40,390 nucleotides of DNA from a virus, in IMG/VR virus record IMGVR_UViG_3300023112_000039, positions 1 through 40,390 of that record. One strand, given 5' to 3'. Positions within the stretch are counted from its first letter, which is position 1; every line of letters starts with the position of its first letter. Positions 4,844-39,161 of this stretch are shown here, in pieces. The notes beneath the pieces are model-generated. The model did not search any database, was not told the origin of the DNA, and saw nothing but the letters and a program-made list of their open reading frames with translations. Made by a program: the position numbers and the translations under genes.

Positions 4844-5403
4844 TACTCGGCCCCCGGTATTGTTCCCGTGAATTCGGAACCCTGCTTTTTACCCGCATCG
4901 ATATTGCTTGCATTCTCTGGGTTTTCAACTACATCAAGAGGCATTGCAATATACTCCGGCTTGACAAATAGAATGCTTCTAAATCTCAGCTCAAAGAACA
5001 GCCTGGATACAGTATCTGACGTTTCCTTGTGAGGAATCGCGATCAGTTGCATATCCTCATAGACATCGGCTTTTGTCTGAACGGTAAGGAATTCAGTGTC
5101 GTTTCGCTCGTACCAGCCCTTCATTTCGTCGTAACTTTCTTTCCAGTCCTCAAAGGGAAGGGTGCAGTTTACGACTATTTCTTTCGGGTTCAGTATGCGG
5201 TGGTCTGATATTAAAATTCCACTCTCGACAGGGGAATCCATTATTTTGGAATCCTCCATCACGTCAACATCGATGATAGTAACATTTGTCAGAACCTCAT
5301 CGGCCCCGCTCAAGAAAAGGCAGTACTTTTGCTGATTTGCAAATGACTGATCCGGCCCGCGCCGGGTCGTGAACTGGTCTAAAATTATGTTTGCAAGGGC
5401 CAT
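4843..5403 (-). CDS. Dit-like distal tail/baseplate protein
   Basis: A 186-residue protein lying immediately after the tape measure gene. The beta-rich N-terminal part and the segments ISDHRILNPKEIVVNCTLPF and FLTVQTKADVYEDMQLIAI resemble Dit-like N-terminal domains of myophage tails, which join the tube to the baseplate hub. The C-terminus is polar and probably flexible. No enzyme motif is visible. Confidence 0.65.
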   Translation of the reverse strand: MALANIILDQFTTRRGPDQSFANQQKYCLFLSGADEVLTNVTIIDVDVMEDSKIMDSPVESGILISDHRILNPKEIVVNCTLPFEDWKESYDEMKGWYERNDTEFLTVQTKADVYEDMQLIAIPHKETSDTVSRLFFELRFRSILFVKPEYIAMPLDVVENPENASNIDAGKKQGSEFTGTIPGAE

Positions 5404-6740
5404 TAGGCTAACGCTCCACTATAGTTTTGATTCACGACCGACTGAAGGCGCTTTTCGAGGTTTACGCCTATGTCGTCAGCGATTCCCTTTGCGTCTGTTG
5501 CCGCGGTGTTAATTGTCATTCCCTGAATCGTTATGCCGCCGCCACTTCCCCCACCGCTGGCGGGTTGCCCGTAGTTTGTTGAAGAAAGGGGCGTCGACGT
5601 TGACTTCAAAGCATCTCCCGCCTTTTCGATAAGTTTGGAGGCCGGAATCATCATCATTAAGAAATCTTTCAGGGATGAGTTTTTAAGGTCTCCTTCTTTG
5701 AGCTTGTCAATTTCAGACGCCGCGCCGGATACCCAGTCGGTGACGAGAGGCATGTAGAACCTTCCGTAAACGGCCTTCAACTTCTCAAGGCTCGCGGTTA
5801 GCTCAACCATTTCTTCTTTGAATCGCCGTGAGTTCTCAATGTCTTCGTCGCTGAAAACGGTTCGTCTCTCGGCAGACGCCAAAGCTGAGTCAAGGCCCGA
5901 AGCGCCTTCCTGTAAAAGCATGATGGTAGAGGCATCGAGTCCAAGCTGTCGCCCAAAATCAAGCTGTTGCTGGGTGTTTAGCGTCTCCATTCGCTTGGCG
6001 ATCTTTTCCAGCAACTCGTCAGCAGTAGCTAATCCCTGAGCGCCAGACCCTGAAAAATCCATCCCGTAGCGGCGTGCGGCCTCCCATAATCGGCTTGTAC
6101 CAGTCATTCGAAGCTCTTGAAGCTCTTGATTCAGGTTGCCAATCATGGCGGAAGCGGAGACCGCATCACCACCGTAGGATTTCAAAGCGTTTCCCCATAG
6201 CTGTATTCGCTGGGGGTCTGATCCGGCAAAGGCTCCGAGGAGTCGAAGCTGTTGCCCTTCTCGACCGAATTCAAGCGTCGTATCGAGGAGTTTTTTAAAT
6301 ACCGCGAGAGGTGCGGCGACCGTAACGGCCTTTGATGCTACCGCGGCAAAGCTCCCCGCCAGCTTCTGGTTTTTGTCCGTTAAAACCTTGGCTGCCCGGT
6401 CTGCTTCTTTTTGCTTTTTCGCGGCAATGGTGAATTGTGACTTTGCAACCTGCGCGCTCTTTTTTGCAATCGCCTCGTCCGCCTTCGTAGCGTTCAGCTT
6501 TTTCTTTAGAGATATAAGGCTTTTATTATTGGCAACGTTTTCTTTGCCGGTCGCCGATTCCATCTCTTTGGACAGGTCGCGAATGCTTTTCTGAAGATCA
6601 AGCGACGTTTCGGAAAGCTCGACATACGCCTGTGCTGCTTCGTCGGCGTTCTTCTCGGTCGCCTCAAGCTCTTTGTTTACCTTATCGGCTCCCTGAGTCT
6701 CGTAAAGCAGTATCAGCTTGTCTATGACGGTTTCAGACAT
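5403..6740 (-). CDS. Tail tape measure protein
   Basis: A 445-residue protein. Long heptad-rich helices (KELEATEKNADEAAQ, SLISLKKKLNATKADEA, AAKKQKEADRAAK) are followed by a hydrophobic central segment (VASKAVTVAAPLAVFKKLL), a helical middle, and a glycine-rich linker (ASGGGSGGG) near the C-terminus. This is tape-measure architecture, and the gene lies directly after the tail chaperone. It is short for this role. If tail length scales at about 0.15 nm per residue, as is commonly assumed, the tail would be near 65 nm. The ATG overlaps the stop of the frameshifted chaperone extension (TAATG). Confidence 0.85.
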   Translation of the reverse strand: MSETVIDKLILLYETQGADKVNKELEATEKNADEAAQAYVELSETSLDLQKSIRDLSKEMESATGKENVANNKSLISLKKKLNATKADEAIAKKSAQVAKSQFTIAAKKQKEADRAAKVLTDKNQKLAGSFAAVASKAVTVAAPLAVFKKLLDTTLEFGREGQQLRLLGAFAGSDPQRIQLWGNALKSYGGDAVSASAMIGNLNQELQELRMTGTSRLWEAARRYGMDFSGSGAQGLATADELLEKIAKRMETLNTQQQLDFGRQLGLDASTIMLLQEGASGLDSALASAERRTVFSDEDIENSRRFKEEMVELTASLEKLKAVYGRFYMPLVTDWVSGAASEIDKLKEGDLKNSSLKDFLMMMIPASKLIEKAGDALKSTSTPLSSTNYGQPASGGGSGGGITIQGMTINTAATDAKGIADDIGVNLEKRLQSVVNQNYSGALA

Positions 6741-6967
6741 TATTCATTCGCCCTCTTTGCTGCGATGTATTCATTATATTTGGGAATTATTACTGACTCC
6801 CACATTATGAACGCATCCTCCAGTGTATAAATCGTTCTCAACTCATGAAGACTGGCCTTGCCACTTCCGATAATCTGACCAATCAAACTATCTACGTTCC
6901 TGAACTCCCTCGCGCCCGCATCTTCTTCTACCGCATTGAGGAAGTTCAGCTCTTTGCGGTGGCGGAA
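6740..6967 (-). CDS. Tail assembly chaperone C-terminal extension, reached by -1 frameshift
   Basis: In the -1 frame relative to the 110-residue chaperone, reading is open from 7036 to a TAA at 6742..6740. From 6967 it gives 75 residues (FRHRKELNFLNAVEEDAGAR ... LRTIYTLEDAFIMWESVIIP ... EYIAAKRANE). The frame has no ATG or GTG start before a late internal ATG, so it is best explained as a G-GT-style fusion made by ribosomal frameshifting before the zero-frame stop at 6946. The YTLEDAFIMWE segment resembles C-terminal domains of phage tail chaperones that contact the tape measure, whose ATG overlaps this stop. The slip site is uncertain. TTT at 6969..6967, inside a run of five T, is a candidate, but it is not a canonical heptamer. 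Confidence 0.72.
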   Translation of the reverse strand, partial: FRHRKELNFLNAVEEDAGAREFRNVDSLIGQIIGSGKASLHELRTIYTLEDAFIMWESVIIPKYNEYIAAKRANE

Positions 6968-7278
6968 AAATCCATAGAATGCCCCAGCATAGCGGTTTCG
7001 AGAGCTACGTAGTCCATAACGTTCGAAATGTGCGCGTCAATAACGGCCTTTGTTTCAAGGCGCAACCAGCTTTCGCCAACCTTCACACTCGCATAAGACA
7101 AAAGTCGGATGCTTTTTTCGACCGGCACTTTGTCGAAATCAAGCTTCTTCCCGCTTACGCCGTCGATGTAAGACAAAAGAACCTCTCGCCCGACCGTAGC
7201 CGGGAGTTTGGACAAAAGAATTTTTTTGCCCCCGATAGTTGTCTCTTTCGGCTCTAATAATGTTGGATCAATTTGCAT
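6946..7278 (-). CDS. Tail assembly chaperone (short form)
   Basis: A 110-residue, mostly helical protein (IDPTLLEPKETTIGGKKILL ... GREVLLSYIDGV ... MDYVALETAMLGHSMDF) between the tube and tape measure genes, exactly where tail chaperones lie. It would hold the tape measure during tail assembly and is normally absent from the mature virion. The zero-frame stop falls 205 bases before the tape measure ATG. That gap is filled by the -1 frame extension, giving the usual short/long pair. Confidence 0.75.
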   Translation of the reverse strand: MQIDPTLLEPKETTIGGKKILLSKLPATVGREVLLSYIDGVSGKKLDFDKVPVEKSIRLLSYASVKVGESWLRLETKAVIDAHISNVMDYVALETAMLGHSMDFSATAKS

Positions 7279-7315
7279 CTGTAGCTCCCGTTTACAGTTT
7301 TATTGCTCAGTTAAA

Positions 7316-7765
7316 TTACACGACGTTTTCGAAAACAAAGGTGTATACCTTCGATTTCTTACGCCCAGACGCTGCCGCGCCGGTTGCGGGCACATACGCC
7401 TTGCATCGACCGGCAGGCATGACAACTTTTCGCGTCCGAATTCCCGCTGTGCTGGCGTAGATGAAAGTCAAAACAACGATGTCGTTCGTCGATGGCTTGA
7501 GCTTTCCCGCTCGGTTCAGACTGAAAAGAATGTTTAAATTCTTGTCGTCTGTTGATCCCGGGATTACTCCGATTTTAACCTCGATTGGCTTCGGGGTGTT
7601 CCATGTGATCAGGTCTCCGTTAACCCCCATGCCTGCGTCATTGATTTCGATCTCCGGAATGTCCAGAGGGTCGGTGTCGTCAGCGAACTGCGTTAAGACG
7701 AGATTCGGGAACGACGGCAAAGCTTTTACAATTACCGTTAAGCCGTTGGCGCTAATGTTTTCCAT
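7316..7765 (-). CDS. Tail tube protein (DUF3277-like)
   Basis: A 149-residue beta-rich protein. It contains GLTVIVKALPSFPNLVLTQF, a DPLDIPEIEINDAGMGVNGD segment and a C-terminal SKVYTFVFENVV strand. The size and pattern fit myophage tail tube proteins, and the gene directly follows the sheath, as in most contractile-tail phages. It would polymerise inside the sheath as the DNA conduit. Confidence 0.75.
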   Translation of the reverse strand: MENISANGLTVIVKALPSFPNLVLTQFADDTDPLDIPEIEINDAGMGVNGDLITWNTPKPIEVKIGVIPGSTDDKNLNILFSLNRAGKLKPSTNDIVVLTFIYASTAGIRTRKVVMPAGRCKAYVPATGAAASGRKKSKVYTFVFENVV

Positions 7766-11490: not shown

Positions 11491-12573
11491 TTAGATTCCG
11501 GTGTAGCGAACAACCCCGATAGGTTGAGCAAACAGGGCGCCGGCAGTCGCGCATGAATACGCTTCCAAGAACCCTTTAGCCTGCTTTTCTACCCCGAGCA
11601 TCCGGAACACGTCTTGAACGTACTGGTTCGCAACCTTGCGCCCGCCGATGGTCTCAGCGATCAGGTAGAAAACGTTCGATCCACCGTTTGCACCGGTGTA
11701 CTGAGGAGCGTTTTCGATGCGACACTTAGGATACGTCTGCGCAATCCACTCACGAACAGAGGTAGTACCCAGCTCGTTAACGGTTGCCAGCATATCGATA
11801 GACACGTCAGCAATTGACAGGCAGCACTCGTCCTTGTAGGGATCGAAGTTCGAACCAGACCGACGACGAAGAGCGGACATTGCCGTCTTGATGTCGTTAA
11901 CGATCTCAAGGAATGTCTTCTCGGCCCATGTGAACCCGCCCGTTCCCGTTGCAACGGTCGTGTAGGCTGGCAAATTCGGATCATTCAAGATTCCGTAAGT
12001 GCGGTTAGCGCCGTCGTTGTAGCCGTAGAAGGCAACCTTGTTCAGCTCTACAGCGAACGAGGTTCCGACAGACATACGCTTTTCGGAAGCGGAATTCACA
12101 CGCATTGAGGAAGCGCGAGCTTCTTCGAGGGCGTGAACTTCAACAGCTTCTTCGAAACGAACGATTGTCCGACGCTCGAAGTTCGGGTTCCAGTCAGCGA
12201 GAACCGGATTCGTTTTGTCGCCGTATGGCTTCGCCTGTCCGGTGTGTTCCAGGACAGTCGCAACAACTTCTTCGTCCGCCCAGTTGCCTGCAATATCACG
12301 ACCGATAATATTATCGGCGGTACGAGCCTGCGTGATTGTGCGGATAACATCCGGCAGGAAGTGCTGCAGGAATTGAACCGGAGTGGATGTTGATGCGGAG
12401 GTAATCAGGTCAGGCGCGGCGTCCTGAGCCATTGCCATAAACTCGCGCATTGCGCGGGGAGTGGCGTTGATACCAAGGCTCTCAAGAGTAGACAGTTGCG
12501 TCTGCTCGTCCATTGCGTAAGCGCGAACCTGATCGGGTCGCAATGACAGTTTTACTTGTGTGTTGTTCGGCAT
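11491..12573 (-). CDS. Major capsid protein (DUF2184-like, HK97 fold)
   Basis: A 360-residue protein. Segments DLITSASTSTPVQFLQHFLP, RTADNIIGRDIAGNWADEEV, FERRTIVRFEEAVEVHALEE and AFYGYNDGANRTYGILND are typical of DUF2184 major capsid proteins. The size and position after the cement gene support this. The ATG has an AAAGG site 8 bases upstream. It forms the icosahedral shell. There is no separate propeptide, and the N-terminal 40 residues look ordered rather than scaffold-like. Confidence 0.87.
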   Translation of the reverse strand: MPNNTQVKLSLRPDQVRAYAMDEQTQLSTLESLGINATPRAMREFMAMAQDAAPDLITSASTSTPVQFLQHFLPDVIRTITQARTADNIIGRDIAGNWADEEVVATVLEHTGQAKPYGDKTNPVLADWNPNFERRTIVRFEEAVEVHALEEARASSMRVNSASEKRMSVGTSFAVELNKVAFYGYNDGANRTYGILNDPNLPAYTTVATGTGGFTWAEKTFLEIVNDIKTAMSALRRRSGSNFDPYKDECCLSIADVSIDMLATVNELGTTSVREWIAQTYPKCRIENAPQYTGANGGSNVFYLIAETIGGRKVANQYVQDVFRMLGVEKQAKGFLEAYSCATAGALFAQPIGVVRYTGI

Positions 12574-13462: not shown

Positions 13463-14008
13463 TTATTTTCCTTCCAAGTAATTTTCAAGTGATGTGTCTT
13501 TCCCCGGCACAACTGCCGAGTCGAGAGCGAATTGCGCGGGCTTGCTATCTGCGTTCATCAGATAACCTTTGAGAAGCGGGAGGGCTTCGTCTTCCGTGCA
13601 TTGAAGTTCAAGTTTTTTGCAGGCGTAAACGGCAACGTCTTTAGCTGTCATTACTGCGCTGTCAAAAGCCCCGACAAACGGCGTAACCTGCTCAACAAGA
13701 GCGTCGCGGGCAGCGATGATTGGAGCGATTGCGGCGAAGGTATCTTCGGCAGAAGCGGGTTTTTCTTCCTCTTCGTCTTCAGTTTTTGCCTCATCGTCTT
13801 CGTTTTCATCTTCGGTTTTGGCTTCTTCGTCTTTTTCGGCATCCTCTGCCGTTTCGACTTCAGCCTTTTCCTCGGTTTCATCCTCGGTTTTTTCAACTTC
13901 AGGGTCGCACATATCCTGCACGGCCTGAATTTCCTCTTCGGAGCAGACGCCATCCAGAGCCTCTCCAATTGCTTTCCGCTTGGCAGCGGATTTTTCTTTA
14001 TCGGTCAT
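13463..14008 (-). CDS. Nested scaffold protein (in-frame start inside the protease gene)
   Basis: An ATG at 14008..14006 is preceded by a near-perfect ribosome site (AAAGGAG, then 8 bases). It gives a 181-residue protein, in frame with the protease, that contains only the acidic scaffold region (MTDKEKSAAKRKAIGEALDG...). This copies the known lambda C/Nu3 arrangement. It would supply scaffold in excess over the protease. The start is inferred from sequence alone. Confidence 0.65.
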   Translation of the reverse strand: MTDKEKSAAKRKAIGEALDGVCSEEEIQAVQDMCDPEVEKTEDETEEKAEVETAEDAEKDEEAKTEDENEDDEAKTEDEEEEKPASAEDTFAAIAPIIAARDALVEQVTPFVGAFDSAVMTAKDVAVYACKKLELQCTEDEALPLLKGYLMNADSKPAQFALDSAVVPGKDTSLENYLEGK

Positions 14009-14590
14009 GGTATCTTCTCCTTTTTGGATTGCGTTGATCTCCTCGATAGAATCAAAAACTGTAGCTTTAGAGTCGTAGACCCTTACATCCGATCCCATTC
14101 TGCCCTTGTCAACAAGAGCAATGTGGTTTCCGGCAATACAGGTCTGTTTAAAATCGTATGTTTTCCCCTCGAACACCCCGCGCTGTGGTTCGTATTTGCA
14201 ACGATAGCCAAGGGAGAGTTCTTTTTTTCCGCTCTCGATGTTTTCTTTCAGCGACTCAGAATAGATTTTGAAGTCGGCAACAATCATTCCGGGGGTGTCG
14301 CCTTTGCGAACGTTGAACATGGAGCCACCAGCGGGTCGGTCGTCGTAGTTCGTGCATCCGTCTCCCAGCATCTCATGGTTATCGATGAAGGGGTCGCCGT
14401 TGAAAGACTCGATCGTGTCGGGTTTCTCAAGCTCGGAGGCTGGACGGTAGACGTTGTATATCTTATTCGGCTCAAGACCCAGCGACCCAGAAAAGTCAAT
14501 CTGAGATCCAAGGTAAGGAAAAACGCCCTCTTTCGTGACGGGGTTTCCCTTGATTAACCAAAAGCCGTTTATATCTACTTCTTTACCCAT
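13463..14590 (-). CDS. Prohead protease-scaffold fusion (DUF2213-like)
   Basis: A 375-residue protein in two parts. Residues 1 to about 185 form a DUF2213/S78-like protease domain. His72 in FIDNHEMLGDG and Ser126 in KKELSLGYRC are the likely catalytic pair, and AGNHIALVDKGRMGSDVRV follows as in related proteases. The rest is a very acidic helical scaffold (runs of Glu/Asp between about residues 225 and 285) ending in a small folded tail. It guides procapsid assembly and is then cleaved. A nested start for the scaffold alone is present at 14008. Confidence 0.83.
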   Translation of the reverse strand: MGKEVDINGFWLIKGNPVTKEGVFPYLGSQIDFSGSLGLEPNKIYNVYRPASELEKPDTIESFNGDPFIDNHEMLGDGCTNYDDRPAGGSMFNVRKGDTPGMIVADFKIYSESLKENIESGKKELSLGYRCKYEPQRGVFEGKTYDFKQTCIAGNHIALVDKGRMGSDVRVYDSKATVFDSIEEINAIQKGEDTMTDKEKSAAKRKAIGEALDGVCSEEEIQAVQDMCDPEVEKTEDETEEKAEVETAEDAEKDEEAKTEDENEDDEAKTEDEEEEKPASAEDTFAAIAPIIAARDALVEQVTPFVGAFDSAVMTAKDVAVYACKKLELQCTEDEALPLLKGYLMNADSKPAQFALDSAVVPGKDTSLENYLEGK

Positions 14591-14930: not shown

Positions 14931-15443
14931 TCAATCCTTCAACGACTCAACGTGATCCAGAATCTTTCCCTTGATCGTGTCGGGCTTCTTAACGGTTCCG
15001 CTGATCTCAAGGTTGTATTCAGACTTTGCAAACGCCTTCAGAGCGTCGGCGTCTTCTGAGTTTTCCCAGTCGAAGGGGGTGTCATCTTTGGATTCATCAG
15101 CCTCCGGCTCGTCATCTTCGCTTGGCGGTTTGTCATCTGCTGGCGGAGCAGGCTCTTTCTGCGGGGCTTCTGGCGCGGCGTCGTTTCTCAAGTACTCGCT
15201 GACGTCGCAGGCCCGCACAATCTTCGCCTCCCCGTCTTCGCAAGCAATGAAGTCGCCCTTCTTAGGGTTGTGTTCGAGCAAAAAGGCGTTATTCACCTTG
15301 ACCGGATCACAAGCGCCGTCTTTGACGTGCAGCAACGCGGTTCCGTCACTCTCGCGGTTTTCTTCTTTGGCAATGTATACGTCTCGCGCAATCTCTACAA
15401 CTTCAAGCGCGCTTACCCCTTCTGGCATCTCTACTGTATTCAT
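14931..15443 (-). CDS. Acidic protein with C-terminal HeH/SAP-like motif
   Basis: A 170-residue protein. The N-terminal about 90 residues look folded (HVKDGACDPVKVNNAFLLEH, KKGDFIACEDGEAKIVRACD). A Pro/Glu/Asp-rich linker follows, and the last 40 residues (DALKAFAKSEYNLEISGTVK ... IKGKILDHV) resemble the HeH/LEM-like helix-extended-helix motif found at the ends of phage structural and packaging proteins. Role unknown; nucleic acid or protein binding is possible. Confidence 0.6.
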   Translation of the reverse strand: MNTVEMPEGVSALEVVEIARDVYIAKEENRESDGTALLHVKDGACDPVKVNNAFLLEHNPKKGDFIACEDGEAKIVRACDVSEYLRNDAAPEAPQKEPAPPADDKPPSEDDEPEADESKDDTPFDWENSEDADALKAFAKSEYNLEISGTVKKPDTIKGKILDHVESLKD

Positions 15444-15469
15444 GGTTTTCCCTTTCTGTTTTTGATTAA

Positions 15470-15628
15470 TTACTTCCCTGCTCCGAGGCGGTACTCCTCA
15501 ACCTCTCGCACCAGAGCCGTGATGCTTCCGGTCTTGGTTTTAAACTTTACAGTCGTTTCGTTCCGGCTGATTTCTTGAAGACCATACCACGCCGGTCGCT
15601 TTTCGAAAATCCTGGGTTCTGCTTTCAT
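15470..15628 (-). CDS. Small protein of unknown function (52 residues)
   Basis: ATG at 15628 with an AAGGAAA site, stop TAA at 15472..15470. It reads MKAEPRIFEKRPAWYGLQEI ... NETTVKFKTKTGSITALVRE, a compact beta-type sequence. It fills the gap before the acidic HeH-like gene in the same direction, 26 bases from that gene. No family recognised. Confidence 0.6.
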   Translation of the reverse strand: MKAEPRIFEKRPAWYGLQEISRNETTVKFKTKTGSITALVREVEEYRLGAGK

Positions 15629-15773
15629 GGCTTAATTTTTCCTTTTTTTTGTGTATCGCCCATGTACATCAACCACCTTTGTGTATCGTATTTGGCGGTT
15701 TATGAGCGACAACATATAACCGCCAGTTGATGACGACCGGATTACCGGCGGTATAACATGGTGTTGAGTTTAA
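15629..15773 (-). promoter_or_regulatory. Intergenic region with direct and inverted repeats
   Basis: Holds two copies of TTTGTGTATCG (15648-15658 and 15678-15688, 30 bases apart, about three helical turns). A perfect inverted repeat GGCGGTT/AACCGCC (15694-15700, 15718-15724) and a further GGCGGT at 15746 follow. No clear sigma70 promoter was found. The spacing suggests a protein-binding site for regulating the small genes downstream on the minus strand. Confidence 0.35.
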
Positions 15774-16019
15774 TCAAGCAGATGGCGCTCTGACATCACT
15801 ACCTTCAAGTAGATCCTGAATAGCATCGGCTAAGGCATTGATCGTTTCACCTTCCTCAAGCTCGTAGTTTGCCAAAACTGTACCGCGAGGAATCAACACA
15901 AGATCAATGCTCTCGTCGTCCTTTGGTGCAAGGGCAATCTTTAAACCTTCCGTGTTTTTAATCCCGTTCAATCTCAGTGCCATTTGGATGTATTTTTTAT
16001 CGCCGTTATCTAATGTCAT
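15774..16019 (-). CDS. Small protein of unknown function (81 residues)
   Basis: Reads MTLDNGDKKYIQMALRLNGI ... DESIDLVLIPRGTVLANYEL and ends in an acidic helix (INALADAIQDLLEG). A GGAGAAATAAGAA site precedes the ATG. It overlaps the zinc-ribbon gene upstream by 14 bases, so the two are probably translated together. Family not recognised. Confidence 0.6.
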   Translation of the reverse strand: MTLDNGDKKYIQMALRLNGIKNTEGLKIALAPKDDESIDLVLIPRGTVLANYELEEGETINALADAIQDLLEGSDVRAPSA

Positions 16020-16173
16020 TTCTTATTTCTCCGTTTTTAGTTGTTAGTTTTGTCCCGCAAAACGGGCAATATTCTGGCTCAACAATTCGAGAGCCTTCTA
16101 GTTCTGGAATATATCGCGTGTAAAATATGTTTTTGCAAATCTCACACGATGATTCCACTAAATCAAAATCCAT
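16006..16173 (-). CDS. Small zinc-ribbon protein (55 residues)
   Basis: ATG at 16173 follows a strong GGAGGAGG site. The protein has CEIC near residue 10 and CPFC near residue 36, the two halves of a CxxC...CxxC zinc ribbon, in MDFDLVESSCEICKNIFYTR ... EPEYCPFCGTKLTTKN. It is one of about nine small Cys-pair proteins in the genome. It may bind nucleic acid or protein. The gene overlaps the next ORF. Confidence 0.7.
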   Translation of the reverse strand: MDFDLVESSCEICKNIFYTRYIPELEGSRIVEPEYCPFCGTKLTTKNGEIRNDIR

Positions 16174-16192
16174 TCAGACCTCCTCCTTTTAT

Positions 16193-16792
16193 TTAAACCA
16201 CTGGGACAAAACAAATAGCCTCGCCCCTATCAAACAACAGCTTCAGGTCAGCATCACTTATCATACACCGCCCGACACTCGCCCTCGTATCCATGAGGAA
16301 GGAGTAGTGTCCGCCACCTCTCCACCATCCACGCTTGCCGACATGACCTGTGGCACAGACGGCGTGCTTGGCCGGCGAGCAATCAGGGTTACGCACCTTG
16401 CTGTTCGACATGCTGATCCAGTTGTCGATGCTTCTGGTCATCCCCTCGTATTGGTGCAGACCGAGGACGACAGGTTGTCGGCTCACCGCCTTCAAGTACG
16501 AAGGCCAGTAGGACGTGCTTATACGTCCCTTGATATACCTCAACCGCACACACGCCTCAAGGTTGTCGCCTATGGAGGTGGGGTTGCCTTCAAACTTTTC
16601 AAGCTCCAAATGTATCGGCCAGTTATCAACGTCTATTCCCATAGCAATCAAGCATTGCCTGACAGCGTATGTAGCACAGTCTCGTTCGATATCATTCTCT
16701 CCCTGATCCAACAGCTCGCACTTAGCCATGCCCCATTTAGGTATGAGTGCGGGGCGTGATCTTTCGTCCCATATTTTATTGTCTCTTGGCAT
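16193..16792 (-). CDS. Papain-like (C1-type) cysteine peptidase domain protein
   Basis: A 199-residue protein. LLDQGENDIERDCATYAVRQ places a cysteine (about 39) in the context of the C1 active-site helix, after the LLDQG strand. HAVCATGHVGKRG (His143) and HYSFLMDTRASVG match the His/Asn half of a papain-like domain. No signal peptide is seen. It is encoded among accessory genes downstream of the tmRNA. It may process virion or host proteins or be a structural relic. It is distinct from the endolysin at 36520..37161. Confidence 0.55.
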   Translation of the reverse strand: MPRDNKIWDERSRPALIPKWGMAKCELLDQGENDIERDCATYAVRQCLIAMGIDVDNWPIHLELEKFEGNPTSIGDNLEACVRLRYIKGRISTSYWPSYLKAVSRQPVVLGLHQYEGMTRSIDNWISMSNSKVRNPDCSPAKHAVCATGHVGKRGWWRGGGHYSFLMDTRASVGRCMISDADLKLLFDRGEAICFVPVV

Positions 16793-17175
16793 TATGAGTC
16801 CTCTTTCTTCCCGCCAGCTTCAGCCGACACATGCCCGTTCTCGTACAGCCAGAGAAGCATGAGGCCCATTGCCTCTGCTAAAACAACGTGCTCACCAAAG
16901 AAATCAAAAGCAGACTTAGCGCTTTCGACAACCCAGCCTTCCTGAGTTTTTATAATGGCTGTGTCTTCCGGCAACCGCTTCCCCAGCTCGCAGGCTGTGA
17001 AGGCGGGGGCAATGTAGCACCAATCAGCCGTTGAGCACGTACCACGTTTGACGCGCTTCTCAATCCCGCTACACAGGCTCTTTACCCACACGAGATATGC
17101 GTCAGGCACCACGCCAGCCTCAGTGAGCGTAGCGAATAGCTTCTTGCTCAGTTCTAAACTTGTTGTTTCGATCAT
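16792..17175 (-). CDS. Protein of unknown function (127 residues)
   Basis: A mostly helical protein (SLELSKKLFATLTEAGVVPD ... DWCYIAPAFTACELGKRLPE ... GEHVVLAEAMGLMLLWLYEN). The WCYIAPAFTACELGKRLPE motif is reminiscent of short conserved phage proteins of unknown role, but I can name no family. ATG overlaps the stop of the upstream gene by 4 bases and its own stop abuts the peptidase start. Confidence 0.6.
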   Translation of the reverse strand: MIETTSLELSKKLFATLTEAGVVPDAYLVWVKSLCSGIEKRVKRGTCSTADWCYIAPAFTACELGKRLPEDTAIIKTQEGWVVESAKSAFDFFGEHVVLAEAMGLMLLWLYENGHVSAEAGGKKEDS

Positions 17176-17438
17176 CGCTCCACCTCCTTCCTCTTCTCTC
17201 CCTTGGTGGTCAGACCCAGCAACGCAAACCGGCGCCGGCGCTTTGCTGCGTGAAGTCGCTTGGCCTTTTTAACGGACGCCTCTGCCTCTGGATTGACGAC
17301 ATGAGGTAGTTTTTTCTTTGCGTACTTCTTGAAGTCGAAGCAGCAAACGCCAACACCGCCAGGGTAAACGGCAAAGATTCGCTTTGCGCATTTCGAGCAG
17401 TAGTGGTTGTTCGGGTTTCTCTGGTTCATTTTTTTCAT
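17172..17438 (-). CDS. Small basic Cys-motif protein (88 residues)
   Basis: The N-terminal half has YCSKCAKRIFAVYPGGVGVC C, an apparent zinc knuckle (CxxC plus CC). The C-terminal half is strongly basic (KKAKRLHAAKRRRRFALL). This pattern suggests nucleic-acid binding. The start could be M1 or M4. No family recognised. Confidence 0.55.
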   Translation of the reverse strand: MKKMNQRNPNNHYCSKCAKRIFAVYPGGVGVCCFDFKKYAKKKLPHVVNPEAEASVKKAKRLHAAKRRRRFALLGLTTKGEKRKEVER

Positions 17439-17497
17439 GTTAGCGCCCTCCGCGTGCGCGTTTGTGTTACGTATTTTGTTTTCTCGAAAGCGTAACG

Positions 17498-17938
17498 CTA
17501 CTTGCTTTTGCTTAACTCACGCTTGCGCTCCGTTAACTCCTTGCGCTTGGCCTCGATCTCTGCCATCTCCTGCGTTTTTTTCAGCTCTTGGTGTTCGTTT
17601 CTATCGATTCTGACCTCGCGCCCGCACAGCTTGCAGGTTTTGCAAAGTGCGGTAGCTTGTCCAATGTAGTGATCGGTTCCCCGAATTGCTATGGTTGCGG
17701 GAACATCTATGCCCCCCGCCTCCCACTCCTCATGAGGGCAAAGCTTTTCAACGATACTCTCAAGGATCTCGATATCGGTCTCGGCATCTGCAATGTCTTC
17801 GGCAAAACCTACGTAATCGTCGATCTGTTTTTGTTGCCGCCTCTGCCGTTTAGCGACTCCGATGTATAGGGTCACGTCCGCGGCCGATATTGCGATCAGT
17901 CCCGCGACGAATATGATTCCTGCTAATGCTTCACTCAT
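17498..17938 (-). CDS. Membrane-anchored protein with coiled coil and zinc-ribbon motif
   Basis: The start is ATG 17938, with an AAAGGAGGAGAAATC site. The longer frame to 18247 would run through the tmRNA and is rejected. The 146-residue product has one N-terminal transmembrane helix (ALAGIIFVAGLIAISAADVT), a basic stop-transfer segment and a helical stretch. A CPHEEW / CKTCKLCG zinc-ribbon-like pair follows, then a charged C-terminal coiled coil. It is the first gene after the tmRNA. Role unknown. Confidence 0.65.
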   Translation of the reverse strand: MSEALAGIIFVAGLIAISAADVTLYIGVAKRQRRQQKQIDDYVGFAEDIADAETDIEILESIVEKLCPHEEWEAGGIDVPATIAIRGTDHYIGQATALCKTCKLCGREVRIDRNEHQELKKTQEMAEIEAKRKELTERKRELSKSK

Positions 17939-17950
17939 GATTTCTCCTCC

Positions 17951-17984
17951 TTTTTTTATTAAAAGCGTAACGCTTTGTTTTAAT
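17951..17984 (-). terminator. Hairpin after the tmRNA, possible weak terminator
   Basis: On the minus strand AAAGCG, TTA, CGCTTTT form a short stem with a few flanking A-T pairs. It lies between the tmRNA 3' end and the ribosome site of the membrane-protein gene. GC content is low and the U run short, so some readthrough into the small-gene cluster is likely. The AGCGTTACGCT core recurs elsewhere in the genome. Confidence 0.35.
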
Positions 17985-18000
17985 GTTTCTAACAAGGTAC

Positions 18001-18420
18001 TGGAGGTGGGGGGAATCGAACCCCCGTGTTGTAACCCTTCCGACCCAACGTTTACGACAATCAGCACGTTATTCATGCGTGCAACTATCCGGTTATGACA
18101 TACCGACAAACAGGGACAACCGGCGACCCTCACGGGACGGAGTTGAATTCCACCAGTCTGTTTTTTTGCCTCGTCAGACCGAGGGTTCTTTTCACGAGTC
18201 GTGATTTGTTGGCGTCCGGATTCCTCTCGCATCCTTCCGGGCCTCACCTCGCGGGAGCTTCATTGACGAATCAACGATTAAGCAGCGATTGCAGACAGTG
18301 CCTGCGGGAACTGGATTACTTTCGTAGCAGTTGTGTTTTGATTGATTATTAAGGAGGCCAACAATCATCCTCCTGTCGTAGTTGAGAATTCAATGGCACA
18401 GTCGAAACCATATCACCCCC
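18001..18420 (-). ncRNA. ssrA: tmRNA (transfer-messenger RNA), phage-encoded
   Basis: The 5' end GGGGGTGATATGGTTTCGAC (18420..18401) and the 3' end with T-arm GGGGG-TTCGATT-CCCCC and CACCTCCA (18008..18001) are the two halves of a tmRNA tRNA-like domain. The 7-bp acceptor pairs GGGGGTG with CACCTCC and has the G3-U70 wobble needed for alanine charging. The 3' CCA is not encoded. PK1 is visible: AGGAGG (18374..18369) pairs with CCTCCT (18357..18352), and loop bases pair with AATCA downstream. The resume codon GCT at 18328 starts the tag ATKVIQFPQALSAIAA, with TAA at 18280..18278. It would rescue stalled ribosomes and mark proteins for proteolysis. Phage structural genes lie on both sides, so it is part of the phage genome. 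Confidence 0.93.
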
Positions 18421-18465
18421 GATGTAAAAGAACAGTGAGCTTTGGAACCCCTTAGCTCGATTCCA

Positions 18466-18493
18466 ACTATAGGGAAGTGCCGCCGGTTTGCAA
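18466..18493 (-). promoter_or_regulatory. Sigma70-like promoter for the tmRNA
   Basis: On the minus strand TTGCAA (18493..18488), a 16-base spacer and TATAGT (18471..18466, five of six consensus) lie about 46 bases before the mature tmRNA 5' end. The short leader would be trimmed by RNase P/E-type processing. It would allow tmRNA expression apart from the late operon. Confidence 0.5.
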
Positions 18494-18518
18494 CGGTAAA
18501 GATAATTTATTTTAGAGC

Positions 18519-19844
18519 CTAAACGTCCAGAACGGGCGTGGCATAACATCCGCAGTTAATCAGAACACCAGGAGGCGCTTTTTCTCCGGTTCTCAGGTCT
18601 GCAACTGGGGGATTGTTGAGGTCATAGATATAACCGTTCAACCCGTTCGGTGGCTCTGACCGTCCGTCCCAGCGGGTTTTATGATATGACCGAGGCTCTT
18701 TGCTTCTACCACCGTGATTCCACTTGGCTTTCGTAATGCCAGCGTTCCTCATGGCTTCCTCAGCAAGCTGATTATAAATCTTGTCGGTCTGATCCTTGGC
18801 GATGAGTTTCGCCCGACGCTCTGTTATTCCGCCGATCTTCTGAATTTCCTTTATCAGCCTCGGACGGTTGCCTCCGGTTTTCAGCGAGTCAAGCACGGCC
18901 TTCTCAATGCGGTCAAAGTACTGCTCTCCGATTGACTTGATCAGATCGACGTTTGTTTTTACCGCCTCTTGCGCGAAAGAAATATTTTCAGTCGTGAGGA
19001 TTTGACCGGGAAGCAACAACGAACTCTGCTGGCTCTCCACCATCGGCTTGATTGAGTTGATAAAAGACGCGCTGGCGTGCTTTGCCTGCTTCTGAAGGAA
19101 TCTCACGGCAGTGATGCGACCGGCCCGCGTTAGGATGCGCTCAAACTCCACCTTTAACTCTTCGGTTTTCGCCTGAAGAGATGCGGGGTCTATGTCCAAA
19201 TCCTCGGCAATGCTTCCCCGGCAGTACGTTTTGAACTCGTCAAAGCTCATTTCTCGGATGTCTCCAAAGCCCTTCCATCCTTCCTCGTAATTCTTGAAGT
19301 ATGCCGCTTTTGCGGATTTGGCAGACCCGAAGCCCAGCATACACTTTTCTTCGTCGAACTCTCCATCACTGTGGTTCACCTGCCGAATCACAAACACCTT
19401 GTCCGAGAAAGGGCGGGCGTCGTTGATAAATACGTCGATGTGGTCGCCGTCGAACCCTAGAGTTCCAAGCACGCGCCCGTAGGTGTGGCGCATCTTCTGA
19501 GACCACTCTTTGCCGTCCTGATCCTTTCCGCTGCGAACTGAGCCGGCAGGGTTTTCGATCGACAGGCGCAACCCGCAATAGTTTAGCTTTCCGGTTTTGT
19601 AGTTCTCGGCTTTGATCTGCGCTTCGGTTGGGGTCGTGTTGGTCTGCCTGCATGCCTCGATCACGTCTTCGCGTGTCGGCTCCGTCATGGCGTCAGAGGT
19701 AAAGGCTGTGTCTCGCCTTGGCTGAGGAGACGCTTTTACGGCTCTTACCATAGCTTTTTCCATAGCCAGAACCATGACGCGCAACTCGCGGGCGTACCAG
19801 TTTTTAATCAGCACGCTGGGTTTTAATGGATTTCCTTGGATCAT
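18519..19844 (-). CDS. Minor head protein (Mu F/SPP1 gp7-like) with inserted pyrophosphatase-like domain
   Basis: A 441-residue protein. Residues about 330-441 (RPRLIKEIQKIGGITERRAK ... WNHGGRSKEPRSYHKTRWDG ... PGVLINCGCYATP) are the phage Mu F/SPP1 gp7 minor head domain. Residues about 70-208 form another domain: LRLSIENPAGSVRSGKD, MRHTYGRVLGTLGFDGDHID, VFVIRQVNHSDGEFDEEKCM. This matches the InPase-type domain described in phage polyvalent proteins. DGDHIDVF resembles the acidic pyrophosphatase signature. The gene follows the portal, the usual position. The added domain might hydrolyse pyrophosphate or be structural. Confidence 0.82.
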   Translation of the reverse strand: MIQGNPLKPSVLIKNWYARELRVMVLAMEKAMVRAVKASPQPRRDTAFTSDAMTEPTREDVIEACRQTNTTPTEAQIKAENYKTGKLNYCGLRLSIENPAGSVRSGKDQDGKEWSQKMRHTYGRVLGTLGFDGDHIDVFINDARPFSDKVFVIRQVNHSDGEFDEEKCMLGFGSAKSAKAAYFKNYEEGWKGFGDIREMSFDEFKTYCRGSIAEDLDIDPASLQAKTEELKVEFERILTRAGRITAVRFLQKQAKHASASFINSIKPMVESQQSSLLLPGQILTTENISFAQEAVKTNVDLIKSIGEQYFDRIEKAVLDSLKTGGNRPRLIKEIQKIGGITERRAKLIAKDQTDKIYNQLAEEAMRNAGITKAKWNHGGRSKEPRSYHKTRWDGRSEPPNGLNGYIYDLNNPPVADLRTGEKAPPGVLINCGCYATPVLDV

Positions 19845-19850
19845 AAATGT

Positions 19851-21506
19851 TTAATCCAAATAGTTCCGACCACCGCTTGTCGTTTCCCGGTACTGCCTGC
19901 CGGATTCCGTGGTCTTAACCGGCCCCAGATCCTTCTTGCCGCCCTTTTCCTCGTCTCCCTTCAAAAGCTCTCCTGCAAGCTTCTCGGCGTCGTCGTCTAA
20001 ATCCTCCTGAGACTCTGAGACGTCGGAAAGGGTGCTGTATCTCGACCCCTCTTCCGTCCGGATGATGTCGCGAATCTCTTCTGGGTCAACGATCCCGCCC
20101 ATGACATAAGTGGAGTCGACCTGCGCTCTGATGTTCTCGACCTCTGCCAGCTCTTTGTCTGTCGGCGCGTCAACGGGGTTGAACGTGACGACCAGAGGGA
20201 TATCTTCCCCGTACTTCGATTTCGTGTAAAGCGCGTTGTGCATCTTAATCAGTGGCGTGAAGTCGTGCTTCTGGATCTCTTGAAGCGTCTGGGAGTAATC
20301 CTTGAACTCATACTCTCCGGTAGCGTTGAAGCCCTTCGGCGTGGTCTTGAGGAGCTTTGTTGCGGGCATCTCCGCAATGCTGGCTACAAGCTGATACTGA
20401 GTCATGATAACCTCGTCGAGATTTCCGAGGCTGGTGTCGATCTGTGAAACCTGGTCGCCCTGTCGCTTAAACCACACTGCGAAGTTGTCGCGCATGTATG
20501 AGATTGCTTTTACGATAGCGTTCGCCTCGTCTGGATTAGCGATAAGGTTCTCAACGTCGGCGTCGGCAATCAGCATACGCTTTGACATTGCCAGCAAAGG
20601 AACCTCGTTCGCGGTCTTCTCCGCAGCATACACTCGCTCATAAATCATTTGCGTGAGCGGAACCCCGCCATAATAGTAAGTGGGCTTCAGAATGTCCGGA
20701 ACAACGGTGTTTACGACCTTAATACACCACGACCGATGAACGAGCTTCCCGCCCCCGATCTTCCACCATGTCGGCTCGTAAAAGTGCAGGCTGGCGGGGT
20801 TACTGGCTGAGTCGGCATCGAGCTGAGGCGAAACCCAGTAAGGCTCAACAATCGTGAAGCCTTTGTATGTTCCCTTTTTGATTCCGTCGATGTTGAACGG
20901 CTTTGACATATCCGCGCCGTCGACCACTGGGATTGCAATCGCGATTCCGAACGTCTTTTTGTTGATCGTCAGGCGCTGGCAGATTCCCGGTATGCCGAAC
21001 TTGTCTTCGGATACCTCTTTGATTTCAACGAGCTTCTCCTCGTCGACTTCCTTTTCTTCGCCCTCGGATCCCTTTTTGTTGTTCTCGGCATAGGTCAGAA
21101 CGTAGTCGGGGGCCATCGCGTCTTCTGCCGGGATCGAGCAAGCGGCATCAATCATGTGGTTTTGCCGGAGTAATGAGCAGGCCTGCCAGCCGATGAAGCC
21201 ATGCGCGGCGTAGAACTCCAGAATCTTGCCTGGCACGTCGTTCGGGTAAAGCGTGGTCGTGTCAAAGCTCGAATCCATTACGGCGGCCATTGCGTCCTCA
21301 TCCATTGCGACGCCCTCGGCGGTGACGGGCTTGAGGCTGTCGTGTTTGCGCTGGAAGTGCTTTGCCAGAATAGCCGCCTTGTCGAGCTTCGGAGGATCCC
21401 AGTTGGCGGCGGCTCGCTCGGCTGCCTTTTGGGCGAGCGTCTTTTTCTTAGGCTTCTCGGCTTCTGTTGCGGGGGTCTTTTTTTTGCGTCTGGTGAAAAT
21501 ACTCAT
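19851..21506 (-). CDS. Portal protein (DUF1073-like)
   Basis: A 551-residue protein. After a basic N-terminus, the segments GKILEFYAAHGFIGWQACSL, MIDAACSIPAEDAMAPDYVL, HFYEPTWWKIGGGKLVHRSW and MTQYQLVASIAEMPATKLLK match DUF1073-type portals. The C-terminus (QYRETTSGGRNYLD) is short and lacks the fused Acb1-type anti-CBASS domain seen in some relatives. It forms the dodecameric DNA gateway. Start and stop abut the terminase and minor head genes. Confidence 0.85.
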   Translation of the reverse strand: MSIFTRRKKKTPATEAEKPKKKTLAQKAAERAAANWDPPKLDKAAILAKHFQRKHDSLKPVTAEGVAMDEDAMAAVMDSSFDTTTLYPNDVPGKILEFYAAHGFIGWQACSLLRQNHMIDAACSIPAEDAMAPDYVLTYAENNKKGSEGEEKEVDEEKLVEIKEVSEDKFGIPGICQRLTINKKTFGIAIAIPVVDGADMSKPFNIDGIKKGTYKGFTIVEPYWVSPQLDADSASNPASLHFYEPTWWKIGGGKLVHRSWCIKVVNTVVPDILKPTYYYGGVPLTQMIYERVYAAEKTANEVPLLAMSKRMLIADADVENLIANPDEANAIVKAISYMRDNFAVWFKRQGDQVSQIDTSLGNLDEVIMTQYQLVASIAEMPATKLLKTTPKGFNATGEYEFKDYSQTLQEIQKHDFTPLIKMHNALYTKSKYGEDIPLVVTFNPVDAPTDKELAEVENIRAQVDSTYVMGGIVDPEEIRDIIRTEEGSRYSTLSDVSESQEDLDDDAEKLAGELLKGDEEKGGKKDLGPVKTTESGRQYRETTSGGRNYLD

Positions 21507-29815: not shown

Positions 29816-32056
29816 CTAAAATAGCTCCATATTCTCAGACTCTGCGTTACTCAAATTCTTACAAGCCTGTTTATAATAAGATTCTTTAAGCTCAAATCCG
29901 ACGAATTTACGTTTTAGCTTCAAAGCCACATATCCCTCAGATCCAATCCCCATAAACGGGCTGAGAACAGTATCTCCTTCATTAGACCACAACTGCAGAC
30001 CTCTTTCAATCACATCAAGCTGAAGCGGGCATATATGTCGCTCATCATTATGCTCTCGCGCCGAACGTTTCTGAAGCGTTTTTGAAGGGTTGATATCCAT
30101 CCAAACCGGAGAAGCGTAACGCTGCCAGATATCGATTGAAAGATTTCCGGTATTCTGGAATGTGTTCTCATCACCAGCAAACCACTCGAACTCACCAGCC
30201 ACTGGATTGTCATTAACGCCGTCTTTACGCATTGTGACTAAGTAGTCAGGGATGCCTTGCCGTGACATACACGAGTCTTTTTTAACCTGCTTATGAAGCA
30301 ATCCGAGAGCTTTTGTCCGCTGCATAGCAGTAACTGGATCTTTCCAGATACAAACCTCTGAGTGAAAGATGAATCCCTCGTTTTCAAATATCTTGATCAT
30401 CTCGCCACGAAAATCTCGGATTCCAATAACGCCATCACGCGCTTTTGATGTTGGCAGGTTCATGCAGTGAAAGCTCATCAGTCTGCCTGGCTTTGTCACG
30501 CGGAAAAGCTCATGCGCTAAAAATTTAAAGTGTTCTGAGAACTCCTCATTGCTTTTGCAGTTGCCCATGTCGCGGTCGCTGTTGCTGTACGTATACAGCG
30601 ACGCAAATGGTGGACTGTAAATTGTATAGCCGATTGAGTTATCTGGCAAACTTGCAACACCTTCGACGCAATCCCCTAAGTTAGCTTCCCATCCTTTTCC
30701 TGTCGTTTCTTTCACTTTATATTCCCCTTTGTCTTTTGATGTTCCCTTGATGTTTTCTTCATTGTAAACGTGCATATTTGCTACCATCTCATTCGCCATT
30801 GCCATAGCATCACTCTCTTTTCGTTCGATATTCTTAACAACCGCGCCCTCTGTTTCTGCGGTGATGATATAAGCGTCAACCGTTTTCTTTTGCCCGAACC
30901 GCCAACACCGACGAACGGCTTGGTAATACTGCTCGTAAGAATCAGACAATCCGACAAACGCCATATTATGACAGTTCTGCCAGTTCATGCCGAAACCGGC
31001 AATCTTTGGCTTCGTAATCAATACGCGATATTTGCCTGCTGAAAATCCAAGCATCCGATCTTCTTTAACCTCATGCTTATCAGATCCGCTCACTTCGATT
31101 GCGTCTGGAATAAGCCGTTTAATTTCCGCAGCCTCATCATTAAGATTGCACCATATAAGCCATTGCTCGTCGTTTCCGTTCGCCATCCTCGCCGCCTCCT
31201 GTGCGCGGTCGCTGATTGTTAGTTTGCGCTCCTTTTGGCGTTCCTGCAAAGTGCTGGCCTGCATCCTGAAAAGCATACCGTCTGCGGATTCATGCTCGGC
31301 AACGGAAACCTGGATGTTATTTACATTTAGCTTTGGAAGATCAAATCCGTCATCGCAGTATCCAAGGTCTGAAGGTTTACGAATCATCACCGCCCAGTTA
31401 CATACCCACTTCCAAAACTCTGATTGTGCATGGCCCTTCAGTCTCCATTTCTGAGTTTCCCCGCCATCATGGACAAAGAACATCGAAAGCATCTCTGTGC
31501 GACTCATAGCACCAACGAACTCTGCATGATTACCAAGCTCCATAAAATCGTTTGGCGCTGGTGTAGCAGTGCACGCAAGACGAAACGGGATGGACTGGCA
31601 ACCTTCAATGATTTGATTGCGGATCTTTCCTGTATAGGCTTTTAATATTGAGCTTTCATCAAGTACGATACCGCCGAACTGATCAAGGTTGACATTATGG
31701 AGCTGTTCATAATTAGTAATGTAAATGTGTGGCCCGAAAACATCAGACTGCAATGAATCGATATGAATCCCGAACTTTTTTCCCTCGTTAATTGTCTGCT
31801 TCGATACAGCCAATGGAGCCAGAATCAAAACCGGCATATCTGTTTTTTCAGATACACGATACGCCCATTCAAGTTGCATCAATGTTTTTCCCATTCCGCA
31901 ATCTGCAAAAATACAAGCGCGACCGCGACTCAATGCCCAGTGAACGATATCCCTTTGAAAATCAAATAGGTTTTCATTCAGGTTTTCTTTTGCAAACTCA
32001 AACCCAGTATCCGGGTCAATCATCTCTTTGTTTTTTATAAACTCATTATATTTCAT
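29816..32056 (-). CDS. SNF2-type helicase fused to a beta-class DNA methyltransferase
   Basis: About 746 residues. The helicase half has Walker A ADCGMGKT (residues about 51-58), LDESSILK as the DExx motif and QAVRRCWRFGQ, a SNF2-like motif VI. From about residue 465 a methyltransferase follows: ANLGDCVEGVASLPDNSIGY, then TIYSPPFASLY, where SPPF is the catalytic motif of N4-cytosine/N6-adenine enzymes, and DTVLSPFMGIGSEGYVALKL as the AdoMet-binding motif. The order of motifs is beta-class. It would modify phage DNA against restriction, with the motor aiding movement. Start chosen at the second ATG because GGTGGA is spaced 6 bases from it. Confidence 0.82.
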   Translation of the reverse strand: MKYNEFIKNKEMIDPDTGFEFAKENLNENLFDFQRDIVHWALSRGRACIFADCGMGKTLMQLEWAYRVSEKTDMPVLILAPLAVSKQTINEGKKFGIHIDSLQSDVFGPHIYITNYEQLHNVNLDQFGGIVLDESSILKAYTGKIRNQIIEGCQSIPFRLACTATPAPNDFMELGNHAEFVGAMSRTEMLSMFFVHDGGETQKWRLKGHAQSEFWKWVCNWAVMIRKPSDLGYCDDGFDLPKLNVNNIQVSVAEHESADGMLFRMQASTLQERQKERKLTISDRAQEAARMANGNDEQWLIWCNLNDEAAEIKRLIPDAIEVSGSDKHEVKEDRMLGFSAGKYRVLITKPKIAGFGMNWQNCHNMAFVGLSDSYEQYYQAVRRCWRFGQKKTVDAYIITAETEGAVVKNIERKESDAMAMANEMVANMHVYNEENIKGTSKDKGEYKVKETTGKGWEANLGDCVEGVASLPDNSIGYTIYSPPFASLYTYSNSDRDMGNCKSNEEFSEHFKFLAHELFRVTKPGRLMSFHCMNLPTSKARDGVIGIRDFRGEMIKIFENEGFIFHSEVCIWKDPVTAMQRTKALGLLHKQVKKDSCMSRQGIPDYLVTMRKDGVNDNPVAGEFEWFAGDENTFQNTGNLSIDIWQRYASPVWMDINPSKTLQKRSAREHNDERHICPLQLDVIERGLQLWSNEGDTVLSPFMGIGSEGYVALKLKRKFVGFELKESYYKQACKNLSNAESENMELF

Positions 32057-37596: not shown

Positions 37597-38040
37597 CTAT
37601 ATGCTTTCCGGTTGGGGTCTATAATCTTTAAGTTGTGAAGAGTCGATGGCGTTCTCCGGAGTGACTCCGAAGGCTTCCGTAAATCCAAACCATTGAACCC
37701 CATCTCCGAGTCCTGTGTATCTATCCCGGCTAGGAGACAGAGGAGACACGTTGTAGTTGGCTGAGAGGCTGAATAAAACTTTGCCCTCTTCTCTGGCTGG
37801 TTCGTGGCTAAGGCAGAAGTTCCGAAGGGTTAGTTCTGTGACAACACCTTCGCCGTACACCTGATCCAAAGCCGATTGTGGGATCGGGGTGTCGAGGAGG
37901 GCTTCATCAACCAAGCCCCAAGCGTAAAACACAGGGGTCGGTTGATTCCGTACATTACACTCTTTTAAGAAACGTAATATAGGCTCCTCTTCAGGTGTTG
38001 GGATATGCGCTTCTAATGCTGTGTATTGTTCTGAGGTCAT
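37597..38040 (-). CDS. Protein of unknown function after the tail fibre (possible fibre chaperone)
   Basis: A 147-residue protein. MTSEQYTALEAHIPTPEEEP, FYAWGLVDEALLDTPIPQSA and SSQLKDYRPQPESI show no family I can name. It follows the large fibre gene with start/stop overlap, where tail fibre assembly proteins are often found, so that role is an inference only. Confidence 0.5.
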   Translation of the reverse strand: MTSEQYTALEAHIPTPEEEPILRFLKECNVRNQPTPVFYAWGLVDEALLDTPIPQSALDQVYGEGVVTELTLRNFCLSHEPAREEGKVLFSLSANYNVSPLSPSRDRYTGLGDGVQWFGFTEAFGVTPENAIDSSQLKDYRPQPESI

Positions 38041-39152
38041 TATTCAAATCTCCCGTTAGGAGTTCCCCATCTATGGTCGATCCAGATTTCGCCGTTTGCA
38101 CCCGACTCGATCTGTCCGGTGGTACGGTTGTGGACAATCATGCTTCCGATTGGGTTAAGCTCAGGGGATGGAAGGCCATCCGTCTGGATTTTATGAACCA
38201 CAGAATCAAGCTGATCCCTTGCATCGTTTCTTGATGCAAAATAGACCTGAGAAACGGTTTTAACAATCGGCGCAAGAACGTTATTTGAAGCCCAGAACGT
38301 CGTCACCATGTAATCGTTATCGCTGGTTGCATCCGTAAGCCCCCACACGCCAGCGCCTCCGTCATCCTCGTTATTCCAGACGAGCGTTCCGGCCGGTATT
38401 AAGCCGAGAGCATTTGATGGTGTGCTATACCTCCACTGACCGCCAGACCCCTCTCGCCAGATAAACGGTGCCGATCCGAGTACGGCAATAATGTGCTCTA
38501 AATCTTCATCAGCCCAGACGCCGGTCTCTACAGTGGTAAACGTTGTGCCGTTATTGACCAAGCCGGTGATGTCAGATCCCATCTTTCCCCATGCAAGCCC
38601 GTGAGTGGAGTGGGCGTAAAGATGCGTTACAGGATTCATGCTGATTCCGTGTCGCTCGTCTGCAAAGTAATTAAGTTCGTTCTCTGTCGTGTTCCAGCCA
38701 GCGTAGGCAATCAGCGTCTCTTTAACGATGTACGTGAATGCAGACCCTCCATTGTAGGTGAGATTGCCAGCCGAGTTGAAGTAGATATACCCACCTCCGT
38801 CGTCAGTCATCTGAACAGTCTTGATGCCAGTCACTTCTACCTCTGTTCCCTGATACCAATATTTAAAAGAGGTCTCGCCGGACACATGGTAGATTGCAAT
38901 GGTTCGATCCGCGATTGCCGTGCTCCCGTCCGCAAAGGTGGTCTGGGTCTCAAGAAGCGTGTAGGCTCCGTCCTCGTCGATCTGGTGCACCTCTTGAGAG
39001 GAAGCGTCGTAGCAAAACTGAATAATGCCACGGATCTTCGTGTTGGCATCAAGGCGGTCAAAGCCGGATAGCCCGGTTGGGGCCATTGCTTGGGCCTGTG
39101 TGATGCCTCCATCTGCTGTGGTCTGAGAATGTTGTCCTGCTGGTGCGCTCAT
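38040..39152 (-). CDS. Tail fibre-like protein
   Basis: A 370-residue protein rich in Gly, Thr, Asp and aromatic residues, with repeated beta segments (GYIYFNSAGNLTYNGGSAFT, NYFADERHGISMNPVTHLYA). The opening MSAPAGQHSQTTADGGITQ is closely similar to that of the next upstream gene, suggesting a shared attachment segment. A virion surface role, perhaps receptor binding, is likely. No enzymatic motif is visible. Confidence 0.65.
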   Translation of the reverse strand: MSAPAGQHSQTTADGGITQAQAMAPTGLSGFDRLDANTKIRGIIQFCYDASSQEVHQIDEDGAYTLLETQTTFADGSTAIADRTIAIYHVSGETSFKYWYQGTEVEVTGIKTVQMTDDGGGYIYFNSAGNLTYNGGSAFTYIVKETLIAYAGWNTTENELNYFADERHGISMNPVTHLYAHSTHGLAWGKMGSDITGLVNNGTTFTTVETGVWADEDLEHIIAVLGSAPFIWREGSGGQWRYSTPSNALGLIPAGTLVWNNEDDGGAGVWGLTDATSDNDYMVTTFWASNNVLAPIVKTVSQVYFASRNDARDQLDSVVHKIQTDGLPSPELNPIGSMIVHNRTTGQIESGANGEIWIDHRWGTPNGRFE

Positions 39153-39161
39153 AATAAATCC

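Follow-up and report, generated by a model that had tools for sequence, protein, structure and literature searches.

The presence of a complete one-piece transfer-messenger RNA (tmRNA) gene, i.e., ssrA, is confirmed in an uncultivated tailed phage of ~40 kb, a myovirus represented by a 40,390-bp virus record of IMG/VR (IMGVR_UViG_3300023112_000039), the whole of which is hereafter called the window. A tmRNA frees stalled ribosomes and tags half-made proteins for destruction. Over the whole window, ARAGORN returned a single tRNA or tmRNA gene, namely a tmRNA with mature ends at 18001 and 18420, on the minus strand, and with the tag ATKVIQFPQALSAIAA*. The sole Rfam match was RF00023, extending from 18420 to 17998 on the same strand and scoring 75.2 bits where the gathering threshold is 47 (E 1.3e-27); the alignment covers model positions 1-374 of 374, i.e., the full length. 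The initial annotation, which had called a complete tmRNA at these positions and given no strand, is thus borne out by both methods. The molecule starts with GGGGGUGAUAUGGUUUCGAC and ends with CACCUCCA; because GTA comes after the 3' end, the gene is without an encoded CCA.

The anatomy of the tRNA-like domain (TLD) was likewise found as first described, with both halves present and a full acceptor stem. The 5' strand of this stem, GGGGGUG (18414-18420; minus strand, as for the other RNA elements, the promoter-like site and the window genes given below), pairs with the 3' strand CACCUCC (18002-18008) at 7 of 7 positions including the G3-U70 wobble, as read from the sequence and from the fold of the joined halves. 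According to the sequence and Rfam, the 3' strand forms with the T arm (18009-18025) one segment at 18002-18025, followed by the discriminator A at 18001. The T arm itself reads GGGGG-UUCGAUU-CCCCC, with a 5-bp stem, and the conserved D-loop motif of the tRNA-like domain is present. When joined, the two halves fold into the acceptor, the T arm and the helix H2, the latter with 14 pairs and a 3-nt bulge; from this fold, the 5' strand of H2 (CUCAAC and UACGACAG) lies at 18373-18386 and its 3' strands at 18053-18060 and 18044-18049. Upstream of the tag frame, the first pseudoknot (PK1; 18344-18374), also claimed at the outset, was recovered in the Rfam alignment as well as in a pseudoknot scan, with a stem 1 of 6 bp (AGGAGG/CCUCCU) and a stem 2 of 7 bp (GAUUGUU/AAUAAUC). 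The tag reading frame delimited by ARAGORN (GCU...UAA; 18278-18328) opens at GCU with an A at -4 (AACU-GCU) and encodes the 16 residues of ATKVIQFPQALSAIAA, with a stop and a hydrophobic Ala-Ala end (AIAA). While the length and end of the tag stand as annotated, the AIAA end is not special, since it occurs in bacterial tags, i.e., AKQLAGNYAIAA (locus L113) and GNTYAIAA (L130), and in another phage tag, i.e., AANDAEYDVAIAA (L174).

From what is established about trans-translation, such anatomy predicts that the RNA is charged with alanine and, with the help of SmpB, enters stalled ribosomes, which are then released while the protein is tagged. As judged from its sequence, the gene of the window is probably a functional phage tmRNA for ribosome rescue, which would use the SmpB and alanyl-tRNA synthetase of the host. 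It would be transcribed together with the late genes or alongside them, its ends would be trimmed by host RNases, CCA would be added by the host CCA-adding enzyme, and alanine would be charged by the host alanyl-tRNA synthetase via G3-U70. Host SmpB would then bring the tmRNA to ribosomes that have stalled because their mRNA is broken or incomplete, where the nascent chain would receive the tag, the A-I-A-A end of which resembles signals recognised by host tail-specific proteases such as ClpXP. The benefit would most likely be additional recycling of ribosomes in late infection, a stage at which stalling would be common because of mRNA damage and heavy translation. A SmpB gene was looked for in the window and none was found; all protein partners of the phage tmRNA must come from the host.

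Regarding its genomic context, the tmRNA gene is embedded among the phage genes of the virus record and on the late-gene strand, where the genes for the terminase subunits, portal, minor head protein, protease, capsid, sheath, tape measure and baseplate are all encoded. It sits 99 nt downstream of the stop of a minor head / head morphogenesis gene with an InPase-like domain (18519-19844; PHROG 324, E 2.6e-47; Pfam InPase and Phage_Mu_F), upstream of which is a portal / minor head gene (19851-21506; PHROG 4660, E 3.7e-121; portal PHROG 146, E 7e-75). On its other side, 63 nt away, begins an orphan open reading frame (ORF) of 146 aa with a hydrophobic N-terminus (P0001; 17498-17938), without family or relative, and five more orphan ORFs (17172-17438, 16792-17175, 16193-16792, 15774-16019 and 14931-15443, spanning 14931-17438) make up the rest of an accessory block. 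None of these six ORFs had a PHROG match, no Pfam family passed the cut-off for the block, and a scan for relatives of these ORFs found none beyond an independent contig (L003). Downstream of the block follow the genes for the head maturation protease (13463-14590; PHROG 3778, E 2.7e-92) and the major capsid protein (11491-12573; PHROG 264, E 5.5e-60). As such, head genes do flank the tmRNA in the same direction, as initially stated, with portal and minor head upstream and protease and capsid downstream, but the capsid genes are separated from it by ~3.4 kb of orphan ORFs. The case for a promoter of its own, also proposed in the initial annotation, is weakened: the sigma-70-like site upstream of the gene (TTGCAA-16-TATAGT; 18466-18493) is weak, with 9/12 matches, and the three sites of this type in the region, versus 1.5 expected in shuffles, are near chance.

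Some side observations concern the same genome. The minor head protein is a fusion in which an N-terminal Pfam InPase domain (E 3.9e-51) precedes a Mu F-like one. If one mismatch at most is allowed, there are three copies of the palindrome AAGCGTAACGCT(T) (17488-17500, 17963-17975 and 30112-30124), two of the copies flanking the orphan ORF P0001, and its 11-base core is absent from all other fetched loci except L001, a stretch of this window; it could possibly be an operator or the end of a mobile gene. The left end of the window carries baseplate-type genes (79-1221) and the right end what may be tail-fibre genes (38040-40057); such same-strand ends would be in line with circular permutation and a nearly complete genome.

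Identity to PB1-like myoviruses, e.g., Burkholderia phage Bm1 and Pseudomonas phages, amounts to 43-44% for the portal and the capsid. With these phages the window has head-gene families and gene order in common, as well as a variable set of small genes separating head morphogenesis from protease, whereas their genomes reach 60-69 kb and the protein identity is ~43%. In Burkholderia phage Bm1, the interval between minor head and protease contains one NUDIX gene along with three small genes annotated as hypothetical, and no tmRNA is annotated there. The nearest relative covering the tmRNA site (L005), with a capsid 76% and a portal 60% identical, has its minor head gene ending at 4331 and its protease gene starting at 4398; with 66 nt in between, the whole block of ~3.9 kb is missing, and ARAGORN detected no tmRNA in this relative. 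Among 43 related virus records searched whole, many of which are fragments, 0 had a tmRNA over the family cut-off. Besides, blastn of the window tmRNA against the phage collection gave no match, and neither did the exact 5'-end pattern of the tmRNA against viral contigs nor a degenerate tag pattern. Because L005 is without the block and none of the 43 records has a tmRNA over that cut-off, the gene appears, from these sequence comparisons, to be accessory cargo in a slot between the minor-head and prohead-protease genes. The simplest reading is that this slot took up the tmRNA block in this lineage or in an ancestor not shared with L005, though a loss from the L005 lineage rather than a gain is also conceivable.

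The origin of the gene could still be viewed otherwise. Over 14.8 kb, the independent contig L003 has 99.97% identity to the window, but it stops at window position 16337, within the block and short of the tmRNA; window 16338-18518 rests on one assembly. With the tmRNA junctions lacking a second assembly, a host ssrA locus joined to a phage contig was considered, but such a chimera would need an isolated gene of 420 nt to be bounded by two junctions, with genes on the phage strand within ~100 nt of them, and the tightly packed same-strand ORFs downstream continue into the stretch backed by L003. Moreover, the GC content of the tmRNA stretch (~0.51) matches that of the phage (0.50 for the window), and the covariance score is unlike those of the cellular tmRNAs sampled, all of which argues that a chimera is very improbable. 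Even less credible is a remnant of an attachment site left by integration at a host ssrA: although ssrA is a common integration target, as also suggested by the three copies of one ssrA 3' end in L113, the gene is complete and the window, searched for a tyrosine integrase and for a second ssrA 3' end, contained neither, the one ssrA 3' end being in single copy. An origin as attachment site or integration scar was rejected on these grounds, in agreement with the initial annotation.

With respect to function, several points weigh against a working tmRNA. In the covariance model, its score is below the 91-191 bits of 16 other phage tmRNAs and, when 50 cellular matches were sampled from the genomes of a single bacterial phylum, also below the 156-213 bits of 49 of them, the 50th match (92 bits) covering part of the model only. 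The region of PK2-PK4 is poorly supported, with one extra compact knot and a low confidence of the Rfam alignment, the fold energy of the whole molecule is ordinary (z -0.86), and no relative carrying the window tmRNA was found. The extra knot, a PK3-like candidate from the compact pseudoknot scan (CCUCG/CGAGG with GUCUG/CAGAC; 18156-18184), is not significant alone, and at least two compact pseudoknots also occurred in 100/500 shuffles, a count which does not set the tmRNA apart from shuffled sequence. Because two knots are common in shuffles and the plain fold energy is ordinary, the later pseudoknots are unproven. The lowest score among the phage tmRNAs scored here, the weak PK2-PK4 and a patchy distribution among related records would all suit a passenger, i.e., a captured ssrA gene of host or mobile-element origin drifting without benefit. 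However, drift is expected to break the 7-bp acceptor with G3-U70, the 5-bp T arm, H2, PK1 and the open tag with its stop, all of which are intact, and a passenger is unlikely. By its sequence, the tmRNA gene is best described as divergent with a core without visible damage. Another view, held to be rather unlikely, is interference, where the phage tmRNA would compete with the host tmRNA for SmpB or stalled ribosomes and, with a different and perhaps less degradable tag, dampen or redirect host quality control. The initial annotation had also suggested that the phage tag may redirect rescue or change the protease involved. Consistent with interference, the phage is without its own SmpB, the 16-aa tag exceeds the most frequent tmRNA tag length of 10 aa (PMC11915505), and the TLD-only tmRNA of mycobacteriophage DS6A provides a precedent, in that tmRNA is inhibited by a similar molecule, which perhaps titrates SmpB (PMC4131195). 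Nonetheless, a decoy needs no intact tag frame, stop or A-I-A-A end, and AIAA ends are found in ordinary bacterial tags. It is also decidedly doubtful that a small lytic phage would take over host trans-translation with a late-expressed tmRNA and a foreign 16-residue tag, sending unfinished late or host proteins to a fate different from the one the host tag gives.

That a phage may supply its own tmRNA, as put forward in the initial annotation, agrees with a complete gene in a head-gene operon but was already established, as 402 of 18,146 phage genomes (2.3%) carry a tmRNA (PMC9004378). Phage tmRNAs have long been listed, e.g., in Bacillus phage G, Bxz1, Wildcat and DS6A (PMC4131195), and huge phages carry tmRNA together with SmpB (PMC7162821). 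Like the window, mycobacteriophages Bxz1, Cali and Wildcat, Bacillus phage G and Streptomyces BE1/BE2 phages have a complete ssrA with its own tag (PMC4131195, PMC11237712, PMC9004378). Several named tmRNA phage isolates, though, have larger genomes and many tRNAs, whereas the window is of ~40 kb with no tRNA and carries its tmRNA in the interval from minor head to protease. Methylophilales phage Melnitz resembles the window in its complete viral tmRNA and in that no integrase was found, but differs by a permuted two-piece tmRNA, a glutamine riboswitch, a location downstream of an early promoter and a 141-kb genome (PMC9004378). In DS6A, the phage-borne tmRNA-like RNA is TLD-only, unlike the window gene with its full tag and stop (PMC4131195). 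The late-operon position is not unique, because in another IMG/VR record (3300031578_000150, L164; 38,407 bp) a one-piece tmRNA (5969-6283) stands within the run of packaging and head genes, between the terminase large subunit and the portal and on the same strand; this phage has other terminase and portal families, the tag AETPLLKAA and a score of 119.9 bits. More widely, one 5'-end pattern retrieved 53 IMG/VR stretches, 36 of them with a tmRNA according to ARAGORN and with very varied tags, phage tmRNAs of other lineages being common in IMG/VR. Among these, in five loci (L150, L183, L186, L196 and L197), the phage tmRNA tags have ~30-32 residues (e.g., AEDNTSALLAEATYIINNADEFLVEEVYEMAA), far above the commonest length. 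The window tmRNA is therefore a divergent further example of an established class.

Concerning host and donor, bacterial genomes were scanned with a capsid profile without any prophage turning up, and no close cellular tmRNA was found either. The bacterial tmRNA of L113, which shares the 5'-end pattern and has a tag in AIAA, led to a phylum where the sampled tags are mostly GEYNYAMAA-like; because L113 is only ~50% identical overall to the window tmRNA, like many others, no donor is assigned. L113 is itself a locus of a lake sediment metagenome-assembled genome where, at 5068-7376, the three copies of its 26-27-nt ssrA 3' end follow each other at ~1.1-1.2 kb, a pattern that small islands inserted in tandem at ssrA would be expected to leave.

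To a group of phage tmRNAs that is known but little tested, the present gene adds a divergent member from a small tRNA-free phage, located in a cargo slot of the head operon. A cultured relative would offer a compact setting in which to ask what phages gain from a tmRNA, because the search revealed neither tRNA nor SmpB genes to confuse the results.
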